64,000 nt of DNA, from assembly GCA_002215675.1 (NCBI GenBank), contig NGFH01000001.1, forward strand, positions 248,001-312,000, read 5' to 3'. The translations under genes were made by a program, and so were the position numbers. This DNA comes from Bacteroidetes bacterium 2013_40CM_41_45 (GTDB taxonomy: Bacteria > Bacteroidota > Bacteroidia > AKYH767-A > 2013-40CM-41-45). A model generated the notes under the pieces. The model saw only the letters and a program-made list of their open reading frames with translations, did no database searches and was not told the origin of the DNA. Below, piece after piece: positions 48,277-57,765 of this stretch; position 1 is the first letter of the stretch; every line of letters begins with the position of its first letter.

Positions 48277-49125
48277 TTAATATTCCCACATATCGTGTTC
48301 AAAGTTTATTATCATATCTTTTATGCGGTCCGATTCCTGGAGCGCTTTAACACCTTGCGCATACTCGCTGATTCGCCTGTCATATACGTTTGACTCTTTC
48401 ATGATGTAGCTGTTGAACAGGCGTTTATGAAAAACATCATCGAATGACCTGCGCTCGGCATCGTTCTCCCGGTTAAATACTTCAGCTTGAGAAAGCAACC
48501 TGCGCGCTTCAGGGAAATATACCCAGAACAGCGGCTTGGTTTCTCCACCTTCGCGAATGTTTCCTTTATCATCAGTTGCATATACAATAGGAGCAAAGCC
48601 AATGATTCGCACCTCCATCACAGAACGCTGCTTGTCGAAGAACCAATCTTCTTTAAGACGGTATTGTATAACCTTTTCCGGTGCAAACTCTCTCTTGATA
48701 ATGGTATCCCTGATATTATAAGGAGGGTCTGGTTCGGTATAAGTGGTAGAATCAGTACCGGCACCACCTGCTCTCTCAATTTCTGCAATGGTGCGGGGAG
48801 CGGTAAATTCATCGTTGTCATATGCGGTAAGAGAACCTTCTTTAACGGCATTCCAGACAACATCCATTAAGCTTTTCCTGTCCCGGGTATCGGTTTTGGG
48901 ATAGCCCAACGGCAAATTTATTTTTTCTCTAAGGTCAATAACGCGCCATATTCTCTTTGACCACATAACGTCTGCCTCGCGAACATAAGGATAAGCCATA
49001 TAGGTCTTGGTGGGCATGTGTTCCTTGACATAAATACCATCGAGAACGTTTACATTCATTTCCTGGGCATACGATGCCGCTGTAAACGCCATTATTGCTG
49101 CAAGAAGAATTATTTTTTTGTTCAT
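48277..49125 (-). CDS. gldN: Type IX secretion / gliding protein GldN (PorN)
   Basis: 282 residues. Signal peptide about 1-20 (MAFTAASYAQEMNVNVLDGIY). The GldN/PorN family shows as DVMWSKRIWRVIDLREKINLP, a double acidic/aromatic stretch. It also shows LMDVVWNAVKEGSLTAYDNDEF, VIQYRLKEDWFFDKQRSVME and FWVYFPEARRLLSQAEVFN. GldN is periplasmic and, with GldK, forms rings around the translocon. It is the last gene of the minus-strand gldK-L-M-N series and has a strong Shine-Dalgarno site (GGAGGT). Confidence 0.95.
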   Translation of the reverse strand: MNKKIILLAAIMAFTAASYAQEMNVNVLDGIYVKEHMPTKTYMAYPYVREADVMWSKRIWRVIDLREKINLPLGYPKTDTRDRKSLMDVVWNAVKEGSLTAYDNDEFTAPRTIAEIERAGGAGTDSTTYTEPDPPYNIRDTIIKREFAPEKVIQYRLKEDWFFDKQRSVMEVRIIGFAPIVYATDDKGNIREGGETKPLFWVYFPEARRLLSQAEVFNRENDAERRSFDDVFHKRLFNSYIMKESNVYDRRISEYAQGVKALQESDRIKDMIINFEHDMWEY

Positions 49126-49159: not shown

Positions 49160-50797
49160 TTAATTCAAAACAAAACCAATAGCTGAAAGAGTTGGCTTGC
49201 TTCCGTCAGGCATGCTCCCTTTAATGTATTCAAAGTAAACCTTGTCTCCCACTTTTCCTGCACGGATAGCGTCCTGCATCTTCTGTGTAAGGCGATTGTC
49301 GGTTGCATCCAACTCGATGGGGTCTTTACCGCGCGGATACATAGACATTCTGAATCCATTTATTTTTGGAAATAATTCAAAGTCAAAATTTTCCATTACA
49401 GGAATGATAGCACTTTGGGCAGCGAGCGTTGCCTTTGAGATGGGGCCGCCTTTGCTGCCTGCAATCATGGCAATAGGAGCGGGCAATCTCTTAACACGGT
49501 AATTGGCTTTTCCCATTACCTGCATCTTGCCACCAAAGTCAGCATTAACGGTAAAGATGGCTTCACCCTGAGTAGTAGCAGTAGCAATGTAATGGCCTTC
49601 CCCTGCCTTAGCATTCGGTTTTAATGAAACTCCTCCTCCATTGACAACGGGTTTTACATTTTTATTGGCAACACCCGGAACTGAAATAGACATTGGATTA
49701 TCTACACCGATATAAAGTACATTCATTTTATCAGCAGAAACAACACCGGCAGGTTTTGCTGCTATGTATGTCGTATTGAATGAGTAATAGTCATAAGAAT
49801 TATCTGGTTTTTTAACACGAATAACTCCGCCCCATTTCTGCTCACCTTCTGAGGAAGGATGTGTTGTATATTTTGCAAAACCGCTGGCATCTACGTCCAA
49901 CGGCTTTGGGGGAGCATTACTCATAACTTTAGCAGAAGAATCGTATTTAGCTCCTACAAAAACATCAGGAGCAAGTGTGGACGATGATGCCGAAAGAAAA
50001 ACATCGGCTTTATATTCCTGGCCTATTAATACATAATTTGATTCTGCAATTACCCTGGGAGCCAACACATCAAGCTTAATAATATTTGCATCAATGGATG
50101 CCAGTATATGGTCGATAACCTGGGATTCAGCATTCTTAACATCACCCTGGAATTTGGTAAGCAACGCAACGGTTGCCACTACAGGATTGTGATAAAACTT
50201 GTGCATTTCCCACGTGCGCTTTCCGTCTTCAACAATTTTAGAGTCGGGGTCTTGTGTGTCCAATGCTTTGTCAAGTCGTGCCTGGAAGTCTGCTTTTGCA
50301 TTAGGGTCATCAATGAATTTAATTAAAGTCGCTTTTAAGTCGTTCATTTTCTTTTTCAACTCCGTTGCCTTAAAACCAACGCCATCGTTTTTATCCCCAC
50401 ACATTATATACGTAGGTATGTCGTAGTTATCCTTTTTACCCATCTCTCTCAATTCAGGAACCGGTTCACCTTTGTCAAGACCTTCCACTTTAGAAACCAG
50501 CTCTGTTTTGAGGTCTTCTATATATATGGTCACATCGCCTGCATTCTTTTTTATTTCCTGCGCGCTCCTGTACGCTTTACCGTACTTAATAGAATCGTTT
50601 TTTAAAGCCACATCAAATTTATCATAAGTGATTTTGTTTTTTTTGTCAACATTATCGCGTGAAACGACTAAACTTTCGTTTACAGTAACAAACGCATTGA
50701 TGATTTCTTTACTTACGTTCAGCGCAAGCAATGCTGTTAACACGAGGTACATCATGTTAATCATTTTCTGCCTGGGGCTCAATTTTCCCTGTGCCAT
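49160..50797 (-). CDS. gldM: Type IX secretion motor protein GldM (PorM)
   Basis: 545 residues. The N-terminus LSPRQKMINMMYLVLTALLA contains the single transmembrane helix (about 12-33). This is followed by the long helical D1 domain (about 40-220) and then beta-rich periplasmic domains D2-D4 (about 225-545), including AESNYVLIGQEYKADVFLSA, then FTVNADFGGKMQVMGKA, then YPRGKDPIELDATDNRLTQK. GldM crosses the periplasm and, with GldL, forms the proton-powered motor. It lies 34 bp upstream of gldN and 65 bp downstream of gldL. Confidence 0.96.
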   Translation of the reverse strand: MAQGKLSPRQKMINMMYLVLTALLALNVSKEIINAFVTVNESLVVSRDNVDKKNKITYDKFDVALKNDSIKYGKAYRSAQEIKKNAGDVTIYIEDLKTELVSKVEGLDKGEPVPELREMGKKDNYDIPTYIMCGDKNDGVGFKATELKKKMNDLKATLIKFIDDPNAKADFQARLDKALDTQDPDSKIVEDGKRTWEMHKFYHNPVVATVALLTKFQGDVKNAESQVIDHILASIDANIIKLDVLAPRVIAESNYVLIGQEYKADVFLSASSSTLAPDVFVGAKYDSSAKVMSNAPPKPLDVDASGFAKYTTHPSSEGEQKWGGVIRVKKPDNSYDYYSFNTTYIAAKPAGVVSADKMNVLYIGVDNPMSISVPGVANKNVKPVVNGGGVSLKPNAKAGEGHYIATATTQGEAIFTVNADFGGKMQVMGKANYRVKRLPAPIAMIAGSKGGPISKATLAAQSAIIPVMENFDFELFPKINGFRMSMYPRGKDPIELDATDNRLTQKMQDAIRAGKVGDKVYFEYIKGSMPDGSKPTLSAIGFVLN

Positions 50798-50862: not shown

Positions 50863-51663
50863 TCAGCGGTTAAAATTCATGGCAGAAAGCATGTTGCCGT
50901 AAATGGTATTAAGTGCCGATAAGTTCTTGGCAAGTGCTGCAACTTCATCCTTATACTTCTTGGTATCGTTCAATGAATCGTGAAGGTTTTCCATCAGTTC
51001 ATTAATTCCCTCGTAGAATTTGGAAGTTGCTTTCAGATTTGCATTGGAATCCTGCAGTTGAAGTTCATAAACGGCATTCAATGCAGCAAGATTTTTTCCT
51101 ACAGCGGAAACCTGGTCATTGTATACTTTAATGTCTTCCGATGACATGGCGATTTTTTCAGCTGCTTCAGCTGCCCTGCCATATGATTTTGCCATATTAC
51201 TCACAGAATCGCTTGCGCCCTGCACGTTTTTTACATACTCATTGGTTGCAACCGATGCATCGGTAAGATCAGAAAGCTTAACTGCATTCTCACTCAGGTT
51301 GCGCATTCCGTTTCCTAAGCTCATGATAAGGTCTGTTCCTATTTTTCCGTCCTCAAGAATTTTATCGAGCGCCATTGCAATGGGGTCTTTGGCGCGTTTT
51401 TTCTTGTCAGCATCATCATCATGCATTCCTGCAAGCTCAGGATAAACCAATGACCAGTCCACTTCTTCATGAGGAGGTTCAAAACCTGAGAAAAAGAAAA
51501 TGACCGCTTCGGTACCTAATCCTATTACAAGAAAAACGCCTGATAAAGGCCAGTGTTGAATTTTGAATAGAGCTCCGACAATAACCAGAGATGCACCCCA
51601 ACCATAAAGGCGCCCCATAAAGGTTTTGTATAACTTACCCCGTACAAATGTTTCGAGACCCAT
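50863..51663 (-). CDS. gldL: Type IX secretion motor protein GldL (PorL)
   Basis: 266 residues. Two N-terminal helices (about 17-34 and 38-56), separated by FKIQHWPLSG, sit in the inner membrane; the loop VIGLGTEAVIFFFSGFEPP ends in the conserved glutamate region. The rest is a cytosolic helical coiled-coil tail with LAALNAVYELQLQDSNANL repeats ending at LSALNTIYGNMLSAMNFNR. GldL pentamers surround the GldM dimer in the motor. It lies between gldK and gldM. Confidence 0.96.
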   Translation of the reverse strand: MGLETFVRGKLYKTFMGRLYGWGASLVIVGALFKIQHWPLSGVFLVIGLGTEAVIFFFSGFEPPHEEVDWSLVYPELAGMHDDDADKKKRAKDPIAMALDKILEDGKIGTDLIMSLGNGMRNLSENAVKLSDLTDASVATNEYVKNVQGASDSVSNMAKSYGRAAEAAEKIAMSSEDIKVYNDQVSAVGKNLAALNAVYELQLQDSNANLKATSKFYEGINELMENLHDSLNDTKKYKDEVAALAKNLSALNTIYGNMLSAMNFNR

Positions 51664-51765: not shown

Positions 51766-53043
51766 TTAATAGTCGGCTTTATCTCTTCCGAGGAAACTCA
51801 TCACGCACCTGAAGCCGATATAACATTTTGAAGTATCCTGGTATTCGTATGAACGGGTACCATTCTGCAAATGCCACATCACATCTTTCCACGAGCCGCC
51901 ACGAATTACTTTACGTTTCATGGATGGAGGGTCAGAATCTTTTGCATTGTATGTATAGTCGGTGCTGACATCGTGCGTGAAGTTATAGGCCGATTCATCA
52001 AAAGCATTACTGGTCCATTCGGCAACATTTCCCGCCATGTTATAAAGCCCGTAATCGTTAGGCCAGTAAGCAGTTATTTTTACTGTATATGTTCCGCCAT
52101 CGTCCATGTAGTTACCGCGCATCGGTTTAAAGTTAGCAAGGAAACATCCACGGCTGTTGCGGATATACGGACCGCCCCAGGGATAGGGTGAAAGGGCCAA
52201 TCCTCCGCGTGCTGCATATTCCCATTCTGCTTCTGTGGGCAAGCGGAAGGGCTGTGTAAATGCATCTCCCACTCCCTGGTGATATGTATCGAATAATTGT
52301 GTTCTCCAGATACAAAAGGCAGTGGCCTGTTTCCAATTCACACCTACAACCGGATAGTCGTCATAAGCAGGATGCCAGAAATATGCCTGGGTCATCGGGT
52401 CGTGATAAGAATACGTGTAGTCATGTATCCACGAAAGCGTATCGGGATAAACATTAATAACATCTTTTTTAATGAACACCGAACGGTCTGTCTTACCTTG
52501 TTCTCTATTAGCTCTTTGAGCAGCTTCTTTCAAATCAATCCAGTAGTATTCAAAATTTAGTTTACGGGTATCAATTTCTTTTCTCTTGTAAAACCTTTCA
52601 CTCTCGGGCAAAAATAATTCTGCAAGGGCTTCATCGTTTTCTTCTTTGTCCCAACGGATTTTTGCTCTCCAGTTGATGGCCTCGTTGTATTCTCCTTCGT
52701 TCAGAATATGTTCTCCGCCCAGCAACCGATGCGCCAGCGAGTCGCGTACCCAGAATACAAACTGACGGTATTCGTTATTGGATATCTCCGTGTTGTCCAT
52801 GTAAAAAGCAGGAACGGTAACGGTTTTGCTTTGAGATACCATAGCATATGGAACGTCCTGGTCGCTTGGTCCCATGTTGTAACTACCTGCCGGAATATAT
52901 ACCATTCCAAACGGGTCTGCCTGGTACCACTTAGGACGATTCTTCACTCCGACCAATTGACCATTATTGCCGCCACCGCATCCGCTTACGATTAAATAAG
53001 CAAAAGCGACTAAAAGCAATCTTTTCAGTTGACGCTTTATCAT
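51766..53043 (-). CDS. gldK: Type IX secretion / gliding lipoprotein GldK (PorK)
   Basis: 425 residues. The lipobox is LIVSGCGGG (cysteine at about 22). The body is a formylglycine-generating-enzyme-like domain: PFGMVYIPAGSYNMGPSDQD, FYMDNTEISNNEYRQF, PVVGVNWKQATAFCIWRT, FRLPTEAEWEYAARGG, NVAEWTSNAF and VIRGGSWKDV. GldK is an outer-membrane lipoprotein that forms the ring with GldN; its catalytic copper-site cysteines are not used. It begins the gldKLMN series, with 102 bp to gldL. Confidence 0.96.
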   Translation of the reverse strand: MIKRQLKRLLLVAFAYLIVSGCGGGNNGQLVGVKNRPKWYQADPFGMVYIPAGSYNMGPSDQDVPYAMVSQSKTVTVPAFYMDNTEISNNEYRQFVFWVRDSLAHRLLGGEHILNEGEYNEAINWRAKIRWDKEENDEALAELFLPESERFYKRKEIDTRKLNFEYYWIDLKEAAQRANREQGKTDRSVFIKKDVINVYPDTLSWIHDYTYSYHDPMTQAYFWHPAYDDYPVVGVNWKQATAFCIWRTQLFDTYHQGVGDAFTQPFRLPTEAEWEYAARGGLALSPYPWGGPYIRNSRGCFLANFKPMRGNYMDDGGTYTVKITAYWPNDYGLYNMAGNVAEWTSNAFDESAYNFTHDVSTDYTYNAKDSDPPSMKRKVIRGGSWKDVMWHLQNGTRSYEYQDTSKCYIGFRCVMSFLGRDKADY

Positions 53044-53186: not shown

Positions 53187-54107
53187 CTACAAAAATCTTA
53201 CATTTTTATGGAATTGTCTTTCAACGCTTGGTTTTACCCTTAAGCAATAATTTATCATGATTTCGTGTGTACCGCTGCTATATGTCTTTATATCTGTCAA
53301 CGTCATATCGTATGAATAACCCACTTTTAGATTCGGAGTTACTTCTAAACCTGCCATGGCAACCAACGCATCCTGCGGAACAAAACGGTACGAAAAACCA
53401 AGCCAGAACTTATTCTGCAGCAGCACATTGGCATTAAGGTCAATTTGAGTTGAAGTTCCTTCTGACTTTGCAAACAGCGAAGGTTTCAAAGTGATGTCGG
53501 GTGTTAATTCTGCATCATACCCGGCCATAAAGTAGTAATGCCTTGCCAGTTTTGTGGTCACATTATCCGTCTTGATTTCTCCCTCTGTAAGATGCAGAGA
53601 TGATATACCTGCATAAAGTTTATCGCTGTAATAATACGCTCCGAAACCAAAATCAATAGCGCCTCCGCTTACGGCCCCCAAAGGAATGCTTTGGTCACCT
53701 CCGTCATTGAAAATAAATTTAGAACCGTCAATAGATTTTTGCATGTATCCTACGTCAAGTCCTAAGTTAAGATATCCTGAGCCAAGGTATAATTTATGCG
53801 CGTATGCAAGGCGCGCCATCAAATTCTTTTCAAACCCTAACTGGTCAGAAGCAATGGTAAGTCCCAATCCCCCTAGAAGCTTTGGTACGGGTGTTTCAGC
53901 CATAAGCAGAAATGTTTTTGGAGCACCGTCAAAACCCGTCCATTGATTCCTGTACAATAAAGTTCCGCAAATAGCATCGTATGCCCCGGCATGAGCGGGA
54001 TTTACGGCCAGCTTGGTGAACATATTCTGACTGAACTGAGGGTCCTGCTGAGCCCACGCAGAAACAGACAAAAACAGTACGACAGCTAAAGAGTAATATT
54101 TTTTCAT
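53187..54107 (-). CDS. PorP/SprF family type IX secretion outer-membrane protein
   Basis: 306 residues. Signal peptide about 1-19 (ending AWAQQD). The family start QQDPQFSQNMFTKLAVNPAHAGAYDAI is the hallmark of PorP/SprF, followed by LLYRNQWTGFDGAPKTF and barrel strands up to GTHEIMINYCLRVK. PorP/SprF proteins anchor specific exported proteins or assist the translocon at the outer membrane. It lies directly upstream of gldK, so the whole set reads PorP/SprF, gldK, gldL, gldM, gldN. Confidence 0.93.
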   Translation of the reverse strand: MKKYYSLAVVLFLSVSAWAQQDPQFSQNMFTKLAVNPAHAGAYDAICGTLLYRNQWTGFDGAPKTFLLMAETPVPKLLGGLGLTIASDQLGFEKNLMARLAYAHKLYLGSGYLNLGLDVGYMQKSIDGSKFIFNDGGDQSIPLGAVSGGAIDFGFGAYYYSDKLYAGISSLHLTEGEIKTDNVTTKLARHYYFMAGYDAELTPDITLKPSLFAKSEGTSTQIDLNANVLLQNKFWLGFSYRFVPQDALVAMAGLEVTPNLKVGYSYDMTLTDIKTYSSGTHEIMINYCLRVKPSVERQFHKNVRFL

Positions 54108-54267
54108 TTACACTAAGCGTTTAAGAAATAGTTATACTTAAATGCTTTAATAATGTTTTAGGTCAACGGCCTCTTTAAGGGGGTAAAATAAATAAGATTA
54201 TTGATGAAAAGCAAAAATATTTGTGCGGGGAATCTTCATAATCCCTTGCTTTAATCAAAAAAAATCC

Positions 54268-55437
54268 TTATGCGCTTAATTTCTGAAATGCGCGCCACCA
54301 TCTTTCAGGAATTTCCTGACTGCTGGCTTTAACATAATCACCGTAAGAACAGGGAACAATATGATGGCGATGATACCTTATTTTAGAATCGGCAAAGGGA
54401 ACTTCCATCCACCAGCGCTCGCTGTGGTTGCTTTTGTAGAAAATAATCTCATGTCCGGAATTCTCAACCGCAATTTTGTAGGTAAGAAATTCCTTTTTGT
54501 TTTTCCACGGATAATCTTTTTTGCGTGAATAAAATCCGTCAATCAGATACCATAGCATCTGTGCCACCAGGTGCGATGTCTGGTTATTGCTGTCGAGCAC
54601 CGGGTTAAGCTCGTAAAAGCCGGCCGTCGAAAGTTTATCACTCATTCCTGCATAGCGCGCAACGCGGCAAACTTCTTCGCCATAAAACCCATTGGGTGTT
54701 GCATTGCCATTTGCCGGTGCATCGGACTGGCGCACCGAAGAAACATCAAAGCTGAAAATATCCGCATTGCGCACCACCGGCTCGGTTTCTTCAATATTGG
54801 CCTGAACTTCGCCCAGGCGGTACACATCGAAGAAAAGTCTTTTCATCAGCTCCACCGATTCATATCCTGTAAAGTACGATTGGTAACCCAGGTTGCTGAA
54901 GTTGAATAGATAATTCGGCTCGTGAAGTATTATTTTTCCAAGGTATGAATTAGAATTTATTTTGTCTTCCGTCCGCCCTAAATCAAAATTGCAGTCAACG
55001 GCTGCGATATTAACCGTTTGCTGAAGATTTACATAAGCCATGTATTGCCCGTATGTCAAATCATGGCTGCCGCCAATGATAATGGGCATAATATCGTTTT
55101 TGATCAAATCGGAAATCACCGTTGCAAGTGCGGCATACGTGTCGTTCAGCTCCAATCCCGATTTCAGGTTGCCCAGGTCTGCGATGCGATAGGAATGGTT
55201 CCACTTTTTGAGTGCATAAAATTTTTCTCTCACCGGCGCGGCTGCCTCGCTGCAACCGGAGTTATTCACCGCTCCGCGGTTTTCGCTTACTCCTACTAGG
55301 GCAATATCAATTCCGTTCAATACAGGGAACTCATGGTTTGCCATGTAAAATTTCACGGCACTGCCAATGCACGATTTATCCTTAGAAAATTTTTCTTCAG
55401 GATAATCAAGCGGTTCAAAGTAGGCAGCGATTTCCAT
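54268..55437 (-). CDS. Arginase-fold protein with altered metal site
   Basis: 389 residues of the arginase/formimidoylglutamase/agmatinase superfamily. The first metal motif GGSHD is intact. The second, normally D-x-H-x-D, is DCNFD, with asparagine for histidine. The third, normally S-x-D-x-D-x-x-D, is SFDVSSVR, missing the second aspartate. Two of the usual manganese ligands are therefore replaced. A C-terminal extension (about 300-389) with ERWWMEVPF and IPERWWRAFQKLSA is added. It starts 3 bp past the topA stop, so it is an operon partner of topA, and the gldK set lies just beyond. The changed ligands suggest a non-catalytic or altered role. Confidence 0.85.
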   Translation of the reverse strand: MEIAAYFEPLDYPEEKFSKDKSCIGSAVKFYMANHEFPVLNGIDIALVGVSENRGAVNNSGCSEAAAPVREKFYALKKWNHSYRIADLGNLKSGLELNDTYAALATVISDLIKNDIMPIIIGGSHDLTYGQYMAYVNLQQTVNIAAVDCNFDLGRTEDKINSNSYLGKIILHEPNYLFNFSNLGYQSYFTGYESVELMKRLFFDVYRLGEVQANIEETEPVVRNADIFSFDVSSVRQSDAPANGNATPNGFYGEEVCRVARYAGMSDKLSTAGFYELNPVLDSNNQTSHLVAQMLWYLIDGFYSRKKDYPWKNKKEFLTYKIAVENSGHEIIFYKSNHSERWWMEVPFADSKIRYHRHHIVPCSYGDYVKASSQEIPERWWRAFQKLSA

Positions 55438-55440
55438 TTT

Positions 55441-57765
55441 TTATTTTTTGGTCTTACCGCGTTTGGCCCAGGCAGCTTTCCTTTGAGACCCTGATGAGTT
55501 CTTCTCCAGCTCAAAAATATCATCCAGCGTCAACTTTTCAGGGACAAGGTTTTTCGGGATGCGTATATTTTTTCCTTTAAACGAAACGAAAGGCCCCCAT
55601 CTTCCTTTTAAAACTTTTATTTCAGGTTCCTCCTTAAATTCTTTAATGATTCTTTCGGCAACGGCTTTTTGTTTTTCAAGCATTAGCTCTATGGCGCGTT
55701 CCTTATTAATAGTATACGGGTCGTCTTCTTTTTTAAGGGAAGCATATAATTTTCCGTGCTTCACATAAGGGCCAAAACGCCCTATGCTCACTGTCAAATC
55801 CTCCCCGTTGAATTCACCCAGGTTGCGGGGAAGTTTGAATAGCTCCAGCGCTTCTTCAAAAGTAATACTTTCCAGGAGTTGCCCGGTGCGAAGCTTGGCA
55901 TAGCGCGGCTTTTCTGTTTCTTCTGTGGTGCCAATCTGAGCCATGGGCCCGAACCTGCCTACACGCACCAGCAAAGTCATTCCGCTTGCCGGGTCTTCAC
56001 CGAGAATTCTTTCTCCCGACGCACGCTCCGATTCCTTCAAAGTGGTTTCTACTGTTTTGTGAAACGGCTTGTAGAAATTTTTTATCATCTTGTGCCATTC
56101 CATTTTTCCTTCCGCAATCACATCAAACTCTTCTTCTACCGTTGCGGTGAACTGGAAGTCCATAATCAGCGGAAAGTTTGTCAGCAGAAAATCATTCACC
56201 ACCATGCCTATATCTGTCGGAAATAATTTATTTTTTTCAGTGCCTGTTGTTTCGGTCTTCGTTTGCTCGTTGATTTTATTATTCTTAAGAGTGATAACAA
56301 AATAATTTCTTTCCTTCCCCATTCGTTCTTCTTTAATTACATATCCTCTTTTCTGCACAGTGGAAATAGTGGGCGCGTATGTGGATGGCCTGCCGATGCC
56401 GAGTTCCTCCAGTTTTTTTACAAGGGATGCTTCGGTGTACCTCGCCGGAGGATATGTGAACCGCTGCATAGCAGTTGCTTCCGACAAAATTAAATTATCT
56501 CCTTCCTTCATGGGAGGCAGCAGCATAGATTCATCTTCATAATTTTCATCGTCCGAACCTTCGAAATATACTCTCAAAAATCCATCAAACAAAATTACTT
56601 CTCCTTTACCGATAAAGTTCAATTCCGATTTATCGCTTGAAACTGTTACCGTTGTTTTTTCAAGAACCGCATCACTCATCTGCGAAGCAACGGTCCGCTT
56701 ACGAATCAAATCATACAAGCGCTGGTCGCGGGAGTCTCCTTCAATTTCCTCGGCAAACATATCGGTAGGGCGAATCGCCTCGTGCGCTTCCTGTGCCGAT
56801 GCCTGCTTGGTTTTGTACTGGTGAGGCTCGGAATATTTCTCTCCGTAATTTTTTAGAATAACATTTTTGGCCATGTTGATGGCTTCCTGCGAAAGACTCA
56901 CCGAATCGGTACGCATATATGTAATGTGTCCGGCCTCATAAAGTTTCTGAGCTATCACCATGGTTTGTGTAACACCGTAACCGAGCTTGCGGCTTGCTTC
57001 CTGCTGCAATGTTGACGTAGTGAATGGAGCAGCAGGTGAACGCTTGCCCGGTTTCACTTCCAGGTTACTTACAGAAAAATTTGCGCCTATGCAGCTCTGC
57101 AAAAATTTTTCTGCTTCTTCTTTGGTGTCGAAACGTTTTGAGAGTTCGGCGCTAAAAGATTTTTCTCCTCCAGAAAATATTCCCGTAACCCTGTAAAATG
57201 TTTTTATGTCGAAAGCAATAATTTCGCGCTCGCGCTCCACAATTAAACGCACCGCTACGGACTGCACCCGCCCTGCCGACAGTTGGGGTTTTACTTTTTT
57301 CCAAAGCACGGGAGATAATTCAAAACCAACTAAGCGGTCAAGTACACGCCTTGCCTGCTGCGCATCCACAAGGTGCTTATCAATGTCGCGGGGATTTTCT
57401 ATCGCTTCCAGAATAGCTCTCTTGGTGATTTCGTGAAACACGATGCGCTTTGTATTTGCTTTTTTCAGCTTCAATGTTTCGCTCAGGTGCCATGAAATGG
57501 CTTCTCCTTCGCGGTCCTCGTCAGTAGCCAGCCAAACAGTTTTTGCTTTTGCAGAATATTTTTTCAGCTCCGCGATTACTTTCTTTTTATCCTCGCTCAC
57601 GACATACACCGGCTCAAAATTATTTTTCAGGTCAATACCCATGTCTGCCTTCGCCAGGTCGCGCACGTGCCCGTATGATGACTTAACGGTAAAATCCTTC
57701 CCAAGAAATTTTTCTATGGTCTTAGCTTTTGCGGGGGATTCAACGATGACGAGATTTTTTGACAT
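55441..57765 (-). CDS. topA: DNA topoisomerase I
   Basis: 774 residues. The Toprim domain (about 1-115: KNLVIVESPAKAKTIEKFLG) carries the acidic DEDREGEAISWH. The catalytic tyrosine is Tyr283 in GHITYMRTDSVSLSQE. The C-terminal repeats (about 590-770) lack the cysteine pairs of zinc-ribbon versions and instead read as Topo_C repeats (RFGPYVKHGKLYASLKK, KGRWGPFVSFKGKNIRIP). It relaxes negative supercoils. The arginase-fold gene follows 3 bp downstream, and a TAnnTTTG element lies 34 bp upstream. Confidence 0.96.
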   Translation of the reverse strand: MSKNLVIVESPAKAKTIEKFLGKDFTVKSSYGHVRDLAKADMGIDLKNNFEPVYVVSEDKKKVIAELKKYSAKAKTVWLATDEDREGEAISWHLSETLKLKKANTKRIVFHEITKRAILEAIENPRDIDKHLVDAQQARRVLDRLVGFELSPVLWKKVKPQLSAGRVQSVAVRLIVEREREIIAFDIKTFYRVTGIFSGGEKSFSAELSKRFDTKEEAEKFLQSCIGANFSVSNLEVKPGKRSPAAPFTTSTLQQEASRKLGYGVTQTMVIAQKLYEAGHITYMRTDSVSLSQEAINMAKNVILKNYGEKYSEPHQYKTKQASAQEAHEAIRPTDMFAEEIEGDSRDQRLYDLIRKRTVASQMSDAVLEKTTVTVSSDKSELNFIGKGEVILFDGFLRVYFEGSDDENYEDESMLLPPMKEGDNLILSEATAMQRFTYPPARYTEASLVKKLEELGIGRPSTYAPTISTVQKRGYVIKEERMGKERNYFVITLKNNKINEQTKTETTGTEKNKLFPTDIGMVVNDFLLTNFPLIMDFQFTATVEEEFDVIAEGKMEWHKMIKNFYKPFHKTVETTLKESERASGERILGEDPASGMTLLVRVGRFGPMAQIGTTEETEKPRYAKLRTGQLLESITFEEALELFKLPRNLGEFNGEDLTVSIGRFGPYVKHGKLYASLKKEDDPYTINKERAIELMLEKQKAVAERIIKEFKEEPEIKVLKGRWGPFVSFKGKNIRIPKNLVPEKLTLDDIFELEKNSSGSQRKAAWAKRGKTKK

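Follow-up and report, generated by a model that had tools for sequence, protein, structure and literature searches.

Enzymes of the arginase (ureohydrolase) family carry six canonical ligand positions in three motifs, a His, DxHxD and DxD. In arginase, the motif-1 His, the first and last Asp of motif 2 and the first Asp of motif 3 bind metal A. The ligands of metal B are the first Asp of motif 2, the His of that motif and both Asp residues of motif 3. The arginase body forms a trimer or hexamer in the relatives. The formiminoglutamase of Trypanosoma cruzi binds two Mn2+ and, judging from the title wording "N114H variant", presumably has Asn as its native first ligand. A eukaryotic case, the arginase-like protein of Trypanosoma brucei, was reportedly described by Hai in 2015, and it is not known to have an extra C-terminal domain. 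In bacteria, MetCb is the metal-free subunit of the Ni2+ metformin hydrolase MetCaCb, whose authors refer also to mammalian agmatinases, a fusobacterial domain and a protein of T. brucei (PMC11271267).

The gene described here lies in a stretch of 64,000 nucleotides from Bacteroidetes bacterium 2013_40CM_41_45 (the window, meaning that whole stretch). The best family match of its product is to enzymes whose metal site the product lacks, and the gene raises the question of what job is done between topA and an operon for type IX secretion (T9SS). The protein and its orthologues are labelled ARG, and the class referred to throughout is Bacteroidia, as taken from named relatives.

Fold and metal site of the window protein

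ARG is encoded on the minus strand at 54268..55437, from an ATG at 55437 to a stop codon ending at 54268, which gives 389 amino acids with the stop included in the coordinates, exactly as originally placed. The Pfam family PF00491 matches residues 44-298 with 83.4 bits (E 2.5e-23, cut-off 22), and no second Pfam family was found at E 0.001. The top NCBIfam model by score is formimidoylglutamase TIGR01227; the 97.8 bits obtained are far under its equivalog cut-off of 229.15, and ARG is thus not a HutG by this model. The AlphaFold2 model, made with an alignment of 32 sequences, has a mean pLDDT of 93.0 and a pTM of 0.92, and residues 19-306 superpose on the T. cruzi formiminoglutamase 4myn with Z 35.5 and an rmsd of 2.0 over 270 residues. 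With a score above the curated cut-off and the same fold, ARG belongs to the arginase/ureohydrolase family, and going by the model it is an arginase-fold protein. It is probably cytosolic, as by eye the N-terminus has no signal-like hydrophobic stretch, and presumably oligomeric.

The six ligand positions read HDNDDS in the window protein. In GGSHD (55060..55074, minus strand, residues 122-126) the metal-A ligand H125 is kept. The second motif is DCNFD in place of DxHxD (54982..54996, minus strand, residues 148-152), with D148 and D152 kept and the metal-B His changed to N150, and the third is SFDVS in place of SxDxD (54739..54753, minus strand, residues 229-233), with D231 kept and the metal-B Asp changed to S233. 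Both altered motifs are present as the original prediction described them, and its count of two lacking ligands is exact, with both of them unique to metal B. As N150 and S233 replace the ligands used by metal B only, ARG is without exactly the two metal-B-specific ligands, and the six-ligand set of binuclear ureohydrolases is absent. The metal-A set (H125, D148, D152, D231) is complete, and because all of its ligands are kept, it does not follow that ARG binds no metal.

Positions 150 and 233, matched by column, are His and Asp in all six canonical family members compared, including two encoded in the same genome as ARG. Besides ARG, that genome has two arginase-family proteins, at G000:C1:331022-331810 (L001) and G000:C6:155952-156860 (L002). 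In both, the residues altered in ARG are still His and Asp, which means that the genome also has ordinary ureohydrolases.

The metal site across orthologues

The set of 194 orthologues comprises the window protein and 193 of 197 examined loci, namely those with a profile match reaching the C-terminal domain; the four loci left out are canonical-type relatives from outside the class. These sequences are not independent, since several belong to the same genus and at least one genome is present twice via two collections, and 80 of them are the best matches listed in one scan of named genomes, so that environmental genomes and Sphingobacteriaceae-like ones are over-represented. The ARG family is monophyletic with respect to the six canonical members (support 0.76) in a tree of 79 sequences.

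Not one of the 194 orthologues has both H150 and D233, with the His kept in 20 and the Asp in 7. The metal-B pair is therefore missing family-wide, and N150/S233 is no chance change of a single sequence; the view of a conserved divergent member in which the usual binuclear site cannot form, already taken in the original prediction, is borne out. With gaps treated as lost, the full set of six ligands is found in 0/194, four are kept in 42, three in 126 and two or fewer in 26, and Asn at the first position with the other five ligands complete was seen in 0/194. Position 125 is Q in 137 orthologues, H in 27 and N in 15. A metal-A-like set (H/Q/N plus the three Asp) is present in 163/194, the window protein included, and a strictly complete metal-A set in the window protein and 25 others.

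By family (n = 63), the metal-A-like set is found in all sampled members of 46, in some members of 2 and in none of 15. The 31 orthologues without it include 10 that have only Asn at 152 (a residue also seen in one of the six canonical members), 20 with other or further changes, and the fragment L089, which is half readable. When these 31 were realigned with full ORFs in a second alignment, gaps in L146 and L086 were filled and none of the sequences turned metal-A-like; the ligand calls of L085 were altered, and the alignment of this sequence is unsure. Three families (f71, f78 and f97) differ only by Asn at 152, and in 12/63 families every sampled member has a clear change (15 if Asn152 is taken as a loss). 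In the five full-length members of f4 the six ligand positions read NSISND.

The main rival explanation starts from this half of the site. ARG could be an active enzyme that uses one metal at site A, with another group replacing metal B, and its substrate would be neither arginine nor formimidoylglutamate. Besides the frequency of [H/Q/N]-D-D-D, such an enzyme is suggested by the Lys or Arg found at the lost His in 79/194 orthologues (70 of the 163 metal-A-like ones), and by the retention of Glu in 140/194 at E276, which we take to be arginase's guanidinium-contacting Glu. However, position 150 shows 14 residue types among the 163, unlike a catalytic residue, and the 12 families that lost the metal-A-like set are still matched by the profile reaching the C-terminal domain, where W342 is invariant among the letters present. 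We consider a one-metal enzyme doubtful.

It could also be supposed that ARG forms a hetero-oligomer with one of the cell's canonical ureohydrolases and is its inactive subunit, in the way that MetCb accompanies MetCa. The metformin hydrolase provides the precedent (PMC11271267). The window's genome has its two canonical relatives, and in most of the 62 ARG-bearing genomes PF00491 has more than one match. However, beyond ARG nothing matches PF00491 at E 1e-5 in at least 3/62 (G099 and G330, with ARG itself only, and G178, with none), and possibly 5/62, as G467 and G495 have one weak match each whose place is unlisted. Because this search shows no ureohydrolase in these genomes that could serve as partner, a pairing of this kind seems very improbable, and there is also no second ureohydrolase cluster among the recurrent ARG neighbours listed.

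Family-specific residues and the C-terminal domain

In the alignment, conservation has moved to family-specific residues and to the C-terminal domain. The motif E219-P220-x-x-R223 (54769..54783, minus strand) is near-invariant in the ARG family, with E219 and R223 each kept in 193/194 orthologues, and W296 (54550..54552, minus strand) is invariant in 194/194, with Trp in 0/6 canonical members. Among the letters present in the 194 orthologues, W296, G250 and W342 do not vary, and R70, C363, G264, R223, E219, Q186, G89 and F333 reach at least 99%. All six canonical relatives lack W296, R223, F203, R207, C257 and P220, and one of the six has Glu at 219. Such a pattern is that of a protein which selection maintains for a function different from two-metal hydrolysis.

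The class-specific C-terminal domain (54271..54519, minus strand) covers approximately residues 307-389, circa 80 residues, and is predicted to have four strands and two helices (pLDDT 85.5 when modelled alone). It contains the invariant W342 and the signature F-x-K-S...RWW...PC..DY..A...P.RW, which is recognisable in most of the aligned families without the metal site, although f4 and a single member of f6 show a weaker form of it. A profile of the domain finds 57/59 class genomes, with one copy each, and 0/179 genomes from the rest of the phylum. Against PDB sequences the best E was 0.26, Foldseek gave a best E of 2.2, and VIA-align reached a best Z of 3.7 over 610 chains. The window's C-terminal domain has no Pfam match, and 34 members gave scattered weak matches only (best E 0.0021). 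Such poor structural matches do not prove that the domain is a new fold. A link to integrase arm-type DNA-binding domains (Z 3.3-3.5) was below noise and was discarded. The domain is mildly basic, with a median net charge of +1.

Gene order and spacing

The minus strand of the window carries, in this order, topA (DNA topoisomerase I, 55441..57765), ARG, porP (PorP/SprF family protein, 53187..54107), gldK/porK (51766..53043), gldL/porL (50863..51663), gldM/porM (49160..50797) and gldN/porN (48277..49125), so that the claimed topA and type IX neighbours are indeed there. Between the stop codon of topA and the start of ARG there are 3 bp, and the gap between ARG and porP is 160 bp (54108..54267, minus strand).

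Neighbours were surveyed in 62 families at a total of 113 loci. In this survey L078 and L124 lacked an anchor, but L124 is linked in the locus-by-locus view, which agrees with the survey overall. TopA lies upstream of ARG on the same strand in 30/62 families (53 loci). PorP is near ARG in 30/62 families (32 loci, 29 same-strand) and a GldK-like gene in 30/62 (49 loci, 45 same-strand), while GldL, GldM and GldN follow downstream on the same strand in 27/62 families (44/113 loci each). ARG is thus encoded with core T9SS genes, and the gld linkage in other Bacteroidota, as stated in the original prediction, is real. On the other strand, an upstream block in 18 families contains MiaB, a sigma-54-type regulator and LptE (products named by inspection). 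The topA-ARG-T9SS arrangement looks ancestral in the class.

At the loci surveyed, many families have no gld gene found near ARG, and in many (e.g., f2, f3 and f9) ARG is near neither topA nor gld; f2 would correspond to Sphingobacteriaceae, and f5 to Flavobacteriaceae. Some loci of f4, f67, f73 and f87 have topA as a neighbour with no gld found, where for f87 only 2.8 kb is covered downstream. In f4 (L080-L084, L089), glycosyltransferase and polysaccharide-export-type genes come after ARG in place of gld, and in L082-L084 topA and ARG are separated by 1.9-3.6 kb. In three of the five f6 genomes (L085, L086, L088), the neighbours of ARG are an OmpA-like gene and murF, the latter convergent; beyond murF there are GldK/GldJ-like and porU-like genes, and in two of the three a PorP gene (names by inspection). 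At the f91 locus (L121), GldK-like and PorP-like matches are 6-7 kb from ARG on the opposite strand.

From the topA stop to the start of ARG the distance does not exceed 30 bp in 27/54 loci, and the gap from ARG to porP/gldK is at least 57 bp in 43/43, with a median of 142; these values are approximate, as start codons were set by rule, and the 54 include three f4 loci with inserted genes. Spacing ties ARG to topA, not to porP/gldK. In the window's ARG-porP gap, TATTTTTG (54212-54219) matches TAnnTTTG, which we take to be the Bacteroidota -7 promoter element. This element was found in 12/43 ARG-to-T9SS gaps (5.6 +/- 2.1 in mononucleotide shuffles), in 3/43 regions upstream of ARG (1.0 +/- 1.1 shuffled) and in 4/43 ends of the ARG coding sequence (7.3 +/- 2.6 shuffled), and its enrichment in the gap gives mild support for a promoter there.

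The tight spacing, 3 bp in the window, would suit a co-expressed TopA partner that serves topoisomerase I or DNA supercoiling, and this is also favoured by topA adjoining ARG in 30/62 families, including some loci with no gld found. However, in many families, f2, f3 and f9 among them, ARG is not close to topA or to gld, the charge of the C-terminal domain is only mildly basic, and its fold links to DNA-binding domains are not above noise. We find a role as TopA partner improbable.

Distribution in relation to type IX secretion

The full ARG profile matches 371/396 class genomes. Together with the absence of the C-terminal domain outside the class, this makes it likely that ARG is important in the basic cell physiology of the class. 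GldM (TIGR03517) is found in 387/396 class genomes, 384 of them above cut-off. Counted per genome among the 396, ARG and GldM occur together in 369, ARG alone in 2, GldM alone in 18 and neither in 7. In these counts, the absence of ARG from G573, G585, G598, G611 and G624 was deduced by elimination, and G366 was scored as positive on a weak match (1.4e-20), which could represent a canonical relative or just a fragment.

The 18 genomes with GldM alone belong to f12 (six), f11 (four), f95 (four) and f103, f108, f69 and f110 (one each); the absence of ARG is uncertain in one of them, G518, whose contig starts within porP. In G310, porP-gldKLMN has other genes upstream. In G190 and G531 (f11), G373 (f95), G451 (f103) and G598 (f12), porP-gldKLMN stands with no topA or ARG match in approximately 3.6-7.1 kb upstream. 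These five genomes have no ARG, yet GldM, GldK and SprA are present. In the opposite direction, G470 (f2, 99% complete) has none of SprA, GldM and GldK above cut-off and keeps ARG. It belongs to one f2 genus (g2) with T9SS decay, from G627 with GldM, GldK and SprA, through G002 with GldM and GldK and no SprA, to G470 with none of the three at the cut-offs used. The second GldM-negative genome with ARG, G340, is 95% complete with ARG circa 0.5 kb from a contig end, and was not relied on. Two places for GldM are listed in each of G571 (f70) and G420 (f80), and only one of the two adjoins ARG.

Seven of the nine GldM-negative genomes are also without ARG. Five of the seven are f12, a family whose GldM-positive members also lack ARG, and so these double absences are not independent co-losses. 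As for the other two, G342 has SprA, so that a gap in the assembly may explain why no GldM was found there, and G482 is a genome of 1.2 Mb. Class-wide co-occurrence was considered as proof of a T9SS role and rejected, as both genes are ancestral and exceptions run in both directions.

These data bear on the role that the original prediction put forward, in which ARG would be a cytosolic accessory or assembly factor of type IX secretion or of the gliding motor. The same-strand gldLMN downstream, the 369 genomes with both genes, the f91 locus, and the murF/GldK-GldJ-like/porU-like neighbourhood that three f6 genomes keep though the gldLMN linkage is lost, are all consistent with it. However, the gap before porP/gldK is never short, many families have no gld gene found near ARG, and the conserved order reaches non-T9SS genes upstream. 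The presence of ARG also does not track the system, as is seen from the GldM-positive genomes without ARG (18/387), the GldM-negative ones that keep it (2/9) and G470 in particular, and the shared occurrence is confounded by the ancestral state of both genes. With spacing that favours topA, a role with the secretion system is not established, and we regard it as unlikely.

Proposed function

ARG is probably derived from an old enzyme that has taken on a different function. Our best reading is that it is a class-specific non-catalytic (or one-metal) ureohydrolase relative that acts as a cytosolic adaptor or ligand-binding protein. To hypothesize, an ancestral ureohydrolase of the formiminoglutamase type may have been recruited early in Bacteroidia, where it would have acquired the C-terminal domain of approximately 80 residues and shed the metal-B half of its site. 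With that half lost, the usual two-metal mechanism would be gone. The present ARG would be a soluble cytosolic binding protein, in which the C-terminal module, borne by the arginase body, provides the surface for a partner. The old pocket would hold at most one metal, often with Arg or Lys where the metal-B His once stood, and could be a sensor for a guanidino-type ligand or merely structural. By position, candidate partners are TopA, with its tight spacing, and the inner-membrane T9SS motor.

We give a probability of about 0.5 to the reading in which the two-metal mechanism is lost and ARG binds a partner in the cytosol through the C-terminal domain and the newly conserved residues, while the pocket is a one-ion or guanidino-ligand site or a fossil. 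The explanations by a T9SS accessory role and by a TopA partner concern the partner, and can overlap with this one. Several points count against the binding-protein reading. The metal-A-like set in 163/194 is more than simple decay would leave, and the Glu at E276, the Asn152 of one canonical member and the two Mn2+ of the T. cruzi enzyme are counted on the same side. The term non-catalytic is accordingly to be read as a deduction from sequence, as a one-metal site could exist in those 163 orthologues, the window protein among them, and the role as adaptor or sensor is likewise our interpretation. A bolder form, with a rebuilt one-ion or Arg/Lys ligand-sensing pocket and a new-fold C-terminal domain in a near-universal cytosolic regulator or adaptor of the class that connects DNA topology, by way of TopA, or the state of the cell with the type IX motor encoded beside it, seems to us rather improbable.

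Comparison with known systems

In the open-licence literature searched, no description of ARG was found. The passages of PMC7440613 and PMC7881675 that name T9SS and gliding genes do not have ARG among them, and the word "arginase" is absent from the main text of both. PorP, GldK, GldL, GldM and GldN are neighbours of ARG in 27-30/62 families; unlike ARG, these core T9SS proteins belong to other Pfam families, and the match in presence and absence is not strict.

Formimidoylglutamase (HutG; T. cruzi 4mxr/4myn, B. subtilis 3m1r) shares its fold with ARG residues 19-306 at Z 34-35. Unlike HutG, ARG has both metal-B-only ligands altered and an added C-terminal domain. MetCb of the metformin hydrolase is, like ARG, an arginase-family protein that lost metal ligands (PMC11271267). 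MetCb pairs there with an active partner from its own gene cluster (PMC11271267), whereas no such partner recurs near ARG. Pseudo-arginases are already known, with MetCb being one example (PMC11271267). ARG differs in that it has been retained across a class despite deep divergence, in having the C-terminal domain, and in lying between topA and the T9SS operon.
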